NCBI RefSeq assembly: GCF_040812015.1
Contig: NZ_JBFNXJ010000002.1
Location: 1 to 64,000, forward strand
Direction: 5' to 3'
DNA length: 64,000 nt
DNA from: Chitinivorax sp. PXF-14
GTDB taxonomy: Bacteria > Pseudomonadota > Gammaproteobacteria > Burkholderiales > SCOH01
Below are positions 48,855-51,055 of the stretch, piece by piece. Position numbers and translations under genes: made by a program. Within the stretch, counting starts at the first letter, position 1. Every line of letters starts with the position of its first letter. A model generated the notes under the pieces. That model did no database searches and had not been told where the DNA came from. It saw only the letters and a program-made list of their open reading frames with translations.

Positions 48855-48884
48855 TTGACAGCGCAGAGTCGGCCCCGGTAAAAT
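48855..48884 (+). promoter_or_regulatory. sigma-70 promoter of mltD
   Basis: TTGACA (48855-48860) and TAAAAT (48879-48884) separated by 18 bases, predicting a start near 48891 and a leader of about 28 bases before the mltD ATG. Confidence 0.7.
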
Positions 48885-48918: not shown

Positions 48919-50565
48919 ATGAAGAAACTGCCGTTCCTGGTTCTTACCGTCTTCGGATTGGGTGCTTCCGCCCCGCTCTTTGCGGCGGAAACGCGTTTCA
49001 CGCCGCCAGATTCCCCGCAAACAGCGCCCCAGCCCGGCATATCGCAGGAAGCCGCCATCCCCGCACAGGTGGAGCCGGCAGCCGACGCGGACGACAACAC
49101 CGCTGAGCCGGACCGGCTGACCCCCAATCTGCTCGCTGACGTGGATCTCTGGGAGCGGATGCGCATGGGATTCAGCATTCCGAATCTCGATTCGCCCCAG
49201 GTACGCGAATATGAGCAGTATTACGCCAACCGCCCGGAATCGCTGTATCGCATGGTCGAACGCGCGCAGCGCTACCTGTATCACATCGTCAACGAGCTCG
49301 AACGCCGCGGCATGCCTGTCGACCTGGCGCTGCTGCCGATGATCGAAAGCGCCTTCAATCCCAAGGCCTACTCGCCGGCCCATGCAGCCGGCATCTGGCA
49401 GTTCGTGCCTTCCACCGGCAAGAACTACGGCCTCGAACAGACCTGGTGGTATGACGGCCGGCGCGACGTGCTGGCCGCTACCGACGCAGCGCTCGACTAT
49501 CTGCAGTATCTGTACGGCCTGTTCGGCGACTGGCATCTGGCGCTGGCGGCCTACAACTGGGGAGAAGGCGCCGTCTCGCGGGCACTGGCCAAGAACCGGG
49601 CCAGCGGCCTGCCCGAGGACTACCTCGATATCCGCATGCCGGCCGAAACGCAGAACTATGTGCCCAAACTGCTGGCAGTCCGCAACATCTTTGCCAACCC
49701 CAAGGCCTACGGTATCAACGTACGCTCGATTCCGAACCGGCCGTATTTCACCGTCGTCAGCGCACCGGTCCACATGGATACCAAGGTGGCGGCGAAGCTG
49801 GCGGAAATCCCGGTGGACGAATTCGTGCACCTGAATCCGGCCTTCAACAAGCCAGTCATCGCCTACAAGCCAAGCCGCAAGCTGCTGATCCCCACCGACA
49901 AGGCTGACGCATTCAACGAGAATCTGGCCAGCTACGATAAGCCGCTGCTGAGCTGGAAACCCTATAGCACCGCGCGGGGCGAGCGCTACGAGCAGATTGC
50001 GGCGAAATTCGGCATCTCGGTCGACAGGCTGCGGGAAATCAACAGCATCGGGCACGTGCGCGTCGCTCGTGGGGAAATGCTGCTGGTCCCCAGCACGGGG
50101 GCGGATGAAGACGCCACCCAAAACGTCGCGGCACCGCAGCCAGCCGTACCCACCCTGCCCACCTACGCCAAGCTGGAGCGCATCGACAGCAACCCAGGCA
50201 CTTACAAGGTCAAGCACGGCGATACCGCGTTCAGTGTGGCCAAGCGCTATCAACTAACCGTTGCCGAGTTGAGCCACCTGAACAAGTTGCGGGCGGGCCA
50301 CATCACCCCGGGCCAGATGCTCGTGGTAGCCAAGCCCGACACGGTCAAGCCGACAAAGCTGGCCGAGGCTCGCAGTGGCAAGCAGGCGGTGCACAAGGCC
50401 GCACAACCAAAAACCACACGCTATGTGGTTCAGCGCGGCGACACGGTATACAGCATCGCCCGCAAGTTCAACGTGGCCGCAGCCGACATTCAGCGCTGGA
50501 ACAAGCTCGGCAAGCACCTGAACCCAGGCCTGAAGGTAACCTTGTATCTGCCGGACAATAGCTGA
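48919..50565 (+). CDS. mltD: membrane-bound lytic murein transglycosylase D with LysM repeats
   Basis: 548 residues: export signal MKKLPFLVLTVFGLGASAPLFAA, then a family 1 SLT domain with the catalytic Glu in LPMIESAFNPKAYSPAHAAGIWQFVPSTGKNYGL (split here by order: PMIESAFNP, then AAGIWQFVPSTG) and LALAAYNWGEGAV. Three C-terminal LysM modules follow; the last two are clear (YKVKHGDTAFSVAKRY, YVVQRGDTVYSIARKF), the first degenerate. It cleaves peptidoglycan glycan strands with anhydro-muropeptide formation. No lipobox is evident, unlike E. coli MltD. Confidence 0.94.
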   Translation: MKKLPFLVLTVFGLGASAPLFAAETRFTPPDSPQTAPQPGISQEAAIPAQVEPAADADDNTAEPDRLTPNLLADVDLWERMRMGFSIPNLDSPQVREYEQYYANRPESLYRMVERAQRYLYHIVNELERRGMPVDLALLPMIESAFNPKAYSPAHAAGIWQFVPSTGKNYGLEQTWWYDGRRDVLAATDAALDYLQYLYGLFGDWHLALAAYNWGEGAVSRALAKNRASGLPEDYLDIRMPAETQNYVPKLLAVRNIFANPKAYGINVRSIPNRPYFTVVSAPVHMDTKVAAKLAEIPVDEFVHLNPAFNKPVIAYKPSRKLLIPTDKADAFNENLASYDKPLLSWKPYSTARGERYEQIAAKFGISVDRLREINSIGHVRVARGEMLLVPSTGADEDATQNVAAPQPAVPTLPTYAKLERIDSNPGTYKVKHGDTAFSVAKRYQLTVAELSHLNKLRAGHITPGQMLVVAKPDTVKPTKLAEARSGKQAVHKAAQPKTTRYVVQRGDTVYSIARKFNVAAADIQRWNKLGKHLNPGLKVTLYLPDNS

Positions 50566-50594: not shown

Positions 50595-50648
50595 CAAAAA
50601 CGTAATCATTTGATAATCAAGCAGATTATTCTATATTTTACGTTTTTG
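50595..50648 (+). terminator. long AT-rich hairpin after mltD
   Basis: Perfect 11-bp arms CAAAAACGTAA / TTACGTTTTTG enclose 32 bases that fold again (ATAATC / GATTAT). The A-run before and T-run at the right arm make it a likely transcript end for mltD. Confidence 0.6.
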
Positions 50649-50671
50649 GAATTTGTTCTAACTTAATCTTT

Positions 50672-50700
50672 TTGACTTCAATATGCCGATGAACTAGAAT
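50672..50700 (+). promoter_or_regulatory. near-consensus sigma-70 promoter of a candidate small RNA
   Basis: TTGACT (50672-50677), a 17-base spacer and TAGAAT (50695-50700). It predicts transcription from about 50707 into a strong terminator ending at 50785, with no reading frame between. Confidence 0.75.
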
Positions 50701-50706
50701 ACGTTT

Positions 50707-50785
50707 AAGTTAGAGTTATCACTCGAATATATTTTGCTTTCCCCTACCCCAGGAATTAGTCTAGGACTGGCCTGGGGCTTTTTTT
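50707..50785 (+). ncRNA. candidate small RNA of about 80 nt
   Basis: The region lies between a near-consensus promoter and an intrinsic terminator: stem CCCCAGG (50747-50753) / CCTGGGG (50771-50777) followed by seven or eight T's. The first ~40 nt are AU-rich and single-stranded, then comes a C/U-rich patch (TTTCCCCTACCCC) able to pair with G-rich ribosome sites, the layout of a trans-acting Hfq-type sRNA. No ORF or ribosome site is present. It is not a sequence I recognise from a named RNA family. Confidence 0.6.
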
Positions 50786-50866: not shown

Positions 50867-51055
50867 ATGACCGATCTCCCTACTCCACCAGAACCACCAG
50901 AGCCCCCTTTGGATAGCGACTGCTGCGGCAGTGGTTGCGATGTGTGCGTACACGACATGTACACCGCCGAACTCACCGAATACCGCCGCCAGCTGGCCGA
51001 GTACCAGCAGCAGATACAGGCCCGGGCCGAAGCCGGCACGGCCGATCCATCCTGA
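50867..51055 (+). CDS. oxidoreductase-like domain small protein
   Basis: 62 residues with the signature PPEPPEPPLDSDCCGSGCDVCVHDMYTAEL..., matching the Oxidored-like family: a proline-rich start, CC-x-SGC-x2-C with four cysteines for a metal or cluster, and a conserved D-x-Y. The helical tail (EYRRQLAEYQQQIQARAEA) is probably coiled coil. Function unknown despite the family name. Apparently the first gene of a short row with the SUI1 and YchJ genes. Confidence 0.82.
   Translation: MTDLPTPPEPPEPPLDSDCCGSGCDVCVHDMYTAELTEYRRQLAEYQQQIQARAEAGTADPS

Follow-up and report, generated by a model that had tools for sequence, protein, structure and literature searches.

MicX of Vibrio cholerae is an sRNA of about 190 nt that originates in the 3′ region of an mRNA and has its own promoter (PMC9438474). 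The sibling sRNAs NgncR_162/163 of Neisseria form a tandem pair with three stem-loops and block ribosome sites by pairing (PMC9973317). The locus described here lies downstream of mltD in a 64,000-nt stretch of DNA (hereafter the window) located on G000:C2; the genome totals 4.42 Mb in 65 contigs. The locus resembles MicX in that it occupies the 3′ region of a protein-coding gene, with which it probably shares a terminator, but its promoter is located between the genes and not inside mltD, and the predicted RNA measures about 79 nt instead of about 190 nt. The Neisseria sRNAs come from a related betaproteobacterial group and are compared here by description, not by sequence; in contrast to their tandem arrangement with three stem-loops, the mltD-linked unit has two hairpins and occurs in a single copy in G000 according to the covariance model. 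As a general class, the Hfq-dependent sRNAs with a C-rich seed share with it an own promoter, a length of about 80 nt, a 5′ hairpin, an unpaired pyrimidine-rich seed, a terminator with a U tail and an Hfq-encoding host. Unlike that class, the mltD-linked RNA is known from sequence alone and has no Rfam sequence family. SdsR/RyeB (RF00111) is similar in its small 5′ hairpin and in the UUUCCC segment directly before the terminator.

The promoter and terminator signals and their conservation suggest that the mltD 3′ region holds a separate gene for a small non-coding RNA, transcribed from its own promoter and carrying a C-rich seed; we assign this reading a probability of about 0.7. The locus is very probably a real, functional sRNA gene, and very probably an undescribed sRNA of an ordinary, well-known kind. 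In the window mltD is followed by the sRNA unit, an oxidoreductase-like gene (PF09791), a SUI1 gene, a YchJ-like gene and a FimV-like gene, and about 80 nt separate the terminator from the next start codon on the same strand. The features are collected in Table 1. Directly upstream of mltD another near-consensus promoter, TTGACA-18-TAAAAT (11/12), is present at 48855-48884.

Table 1. Features of the mltD-linked sRNA locus in the window; L007 is the counterpart locus in the related genus.
Feature	Position	Strand	Remarks
mltD, lytic transglycosylase, upstream neighbour	48922..50565	+	Pfam SLT, LysM
Second promoter-like site TTGATA-16-TATATT	50610..50637	+	would yield a form of about 140 nt; absent from relative
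Sigma-70-type sRNA promoter TTGACT-17-TAGAAT	50672..50700	+	10/12 consensus positions; relative 11/12
Predicted sRNA, about 75-79 nt, ATG-free	50707..50785	+	start predicted from -10, end from T tract; counterpart L007 5783-5856
5′ hairpin GAGU-UAUC-ACUC	50713..50724	+	L007 equivalent GAGU-AAUU-GCUC
C-rich segment UUUCCCCUACCC, unpaired part UUUCCCCUA = probable seed	50738..50749	+	identical in relative; pairing probabilities
Intrinsic terminator: CCCCAGG/CCUGGGG stem, upper stem, UCUAG loop, then T7	50747..50785	+	predicted fold; L007 upper stem altered yet paired
Oxidoreductase-like N-terminal domain gene, downstream neighbour	50867..51055	+	Pfam PF09791; absent here in L007

The initial annotation had described a near-consensus promoter leading through an AU-rich stretch and a C/U-rich patch to a strong terminator with a T-tract. 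Promoter, AU-rich stretch and terminator are present as described, the terminator stem covering 50747-50777 with the T7 tract behind it, and together these signals enclose a short non-coding segment. The patch UUUCCCCUACCCC is also found (50738-50750), but its last C's are paired in the terminator stem, and the free seed is UUUCCCCUA. Transcription would start 7 nt downstream of the -10 hexamer. In the predicted fold of the 79-nt RNA a free pyrimidine-rich stretch separates the small 5′ hairpin from the terminator, and the unpaired probability of the seed ranges from 0.72 to 1.0 in the window RNA and from 0.52 to 1.0 in the RNA of the relative. The fold energy of the 79-nt RNA is ordinary in comparison with shuffled sequences (z = -1.3).

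Since the GC content over 50600-50740 is 27%, as against 63% in the whole window, lone promoter-like matches in this AT-rich region are less telling and conservation weighs more. Both strands of the window were scanned for a promoter matching at least 10 of the 12 consensus positions with a strong terminator 45-160 nt further on. This combination occurs at a single place, where two promoter-like sites feed one terminator, and 20 locally shuffled windows contained no joint pair of such quality.

Conservation at the mltD junction, set beforehand as a test of the sRNA reading, was examined in L007, a locus from a MAG of another genus of the same family (same contig as G004:C259). Both promoter and terminator are kept there. 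The mltD stop codon is followed by TTGACA-17-TAGAAT, GUAGAGUAAUUGCUCUUAC, GGUUUCCCCUACCC, a terminator stem of 12 pairs and a TTTTCTT tail; the promoter regions share ATATGCC in the spacer, and also ACTAGAAT. The 12-mer UUUCCCCUACCC is identical in the two sequences. In the 5′ hairpin GAGU/ACUC of the window corresponds to GAGU/GCUC, which changes one U-A pair to U-G. In the lower terminator stem the changes are one-sided and leave the pairing intact; the upper stem differs in sequence with its pairing preserved. The local alignment of the two units scores 42, as compared to a mean of 19.6 and a maximum of 31 in 1000 dinucleotide shuffles. This shows that syntenic conservation can confirm a layout recognized by eye. 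The conserved promoter, hairpin, C-rich seed and terminator uphold the sRNA part of the earlier reading, whose trans-acting role is presumed. The claim that no frame lies between promoter and terminator stands insofar as the 79-nt RNA contains no ATG. The RNA of the relative also has none, and since indels of 2 and 6 nt separate the two RNAs, a shared reading frame is argued against.

In view of the above, other explanations can be considered. One is that the terminator belongs to mltD and that the promoter-like site is a chance sequence in AT-rich DNA, with no separate RNA being made. The low GC content does raise the number of promoter-like matches, and mltD has no other clear terminator. 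However, the promoter hexamers, their spacing, the hairpin and the C-rich segment are conserved 5′ of the terminator in another genus, although a terminator on its own would not require them, which makes this explanation quite unlikely. The position within the mltD 3′ region would also be consistent with an sRNA that is freed mainly by cleavage of the mltD mRNA and not made from its own promoter, as would the lack of another good plus-strand terminator between mltD and the unit in both the window and L007. Against this, the promoter is near-consensus and conserved, and we regard release by cleavage as improbable. Some read-through is compatible with the preferred reading of an independently transcribed sRNA gene: because mltD lacks a clear terminator of its own, its transcripts may likewise end at the sRNA terminator.

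The same strand and the short distance to the next start codon could also indicate a 5′ leader or attenuator of the downstream oxidoreductase-like and SUI1 genes. This is very unlikely, since in L007 the unit is intact although the oxidoreductase-like gene is missing and SUI1 follows about 300 nt further on, and the Rfam search yielded neither a riboswitch nor a leader family. Association with the downstream gene is thus not maintained in the relative; the unit's occurrence in two genera with a different gene behind it suggests that it is kept for itself. At gathering scores no Rfam 15 family matched, and the matches obtained at relaxed thresholds (a miRNA, a snoRNA and SdsR) are at chance level. 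That the window RNA is a distant SdsR/RyeB (RgsA-type) RNA is hardly credible: RF00111 aligns with it end to end, covering UUUCCC and the terminator, but with 16.7 bits stays far under the gathering score of 38 (E = 0.45-1.4), L007 gives no match, and a slightly better chance match (17.5 bits) occurs elsewhere in the same genome.

For an independent sRNA gene the following mode of action can be proposed. RNA polymerase would start at about 50707 from the unit's own housekeeping-type promoter and stop at the strong terminator, giving an RNA of 75-79 nt composed of the 5′ hairpin, the unpaired UUUCCCCUA, the terminator hairpin and the U tail. Hfq, whose gene is present in each of the five genomes of the family, the host included, could bind the U-rich tail; the predicted RNA has a U-rich segment as well. 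The CCCCUA segment may then pair with G-rich ribosome-binding sites of other mRNAs and lower their translation. The RNA is probably a lineage-restricted, Hfq-dependent, base-pairing sRNA with a C-rich anti-ribosome-site seed.

Searches of start regions in G000 and G004 gave no conserved or clearly enriched seed target. The patterns TAGGGGAA and GTAGGGGA occur just before an ATG at 6 and 20 sites in G000, as compared to 6 and 11 for the reversed-pattern controls. Start regions with eight perfect seed pairs in G000 include those of galU, a TAP-type esterase and an exported protein, among others (named from their sequences). With duplex energies of -15 to -17 kcal/mol these candidates rank only among roughly the best 5% of random stretches; no candidate target common to G000 and G004 was found. 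A more far-reaching proposal, that a previously undescribed, family-restricted sRNA couples transcription of mltD to the silencing of several mRNAs via its C-rich anti-ribosome-site seed, is unlikely; if true, it would point to a cell-envelope circuit, since galU and two exported proteins are among the candidates in G000. The general picture of bacterial sRNA action is left unchanged by the mltD-linked sRNA.

The phylogenetic range of the unit is narrow. In the genome collection the family comprises five genomes in three genera, and the unit is present in two of the four with a readable junction. In the other two (G001 and G003, genus g2) mltD and the oxidoreductase-like gene are separated by a short junction that lacks it. 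That just two sequences carry the unit and two genomes of genus g2 lack it counts against the sRNA reading, as do the ordinary fold energy and the lack of clearly enriched or shared seed targets. The fifth genome, G002, is a MAG of 680 contigs in which neither the mltD end nor SUI1 was found and was left out of this count; its mltD apparently sits at the end of a contig (L008, probably from this MAG). Other TTCCCCTACCC sites read in G000 and G002 do not carry the unit. The covariance search in relatives, proposed in the initial annotation and covering the family, 399 genomes of the order and 62 fetched loci, recovered both known copies and nothing else credible, with a model built from two sequences that could miss distant relatives. 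An exact pattern search in the 399 genomes of the order likewise returned just the two known copies. A DNA search of 60 relatives gave no additional copy, the sole extra match being 25 terminator bases, and no match to the unit was present in plasmid and phage collections. A weak match in Aquaspirillum serpens (L109 1501-1599) is AT-rich and covers the promoter part alone, without C-rich segment or terminator, and was judged to be due to chance; this sequence adjoins a cas3-like gene.

As far as could be searched, the sRNA gene thus appears restricted to two genera. Among named records MltD has its closest relatives in two MAGs (L007 and L008), and by best-segment identity the nearest cultured relative is Leeia oryzae; the organism is therefore presumed to be a betaproteobacterium near Leeia. 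A literature search on Leeia yielded no work on sRNAs. For this group of bacteria the locus provides a well-supported sRNA candidate whose coordinates are exact and whose seed can be tested.

A search for Fur-, FNR-, CRP- or sigma-E-type sites conserved in both carriers gave none. The second promoter-like site is not conserved in L007, and a longer RNA of about 140 nt starting from it is possible in the window. It lies, together with a weak Fur-like match (12/19), within 32 AT-rich bases that are enclosed by a perfect 11-nt inverted repeat, CAAAAACGTAA / TTACGTTTTTG, at 50595-50648, which is not conserved in L007. The sRNA promoter itself is flanked by another inverted repeat, TCTAACTTAA / TTAAGTTAGA (50657-50714), also without conservation in L007, which could be an operator pair or form a hairpin within a longer transcript.
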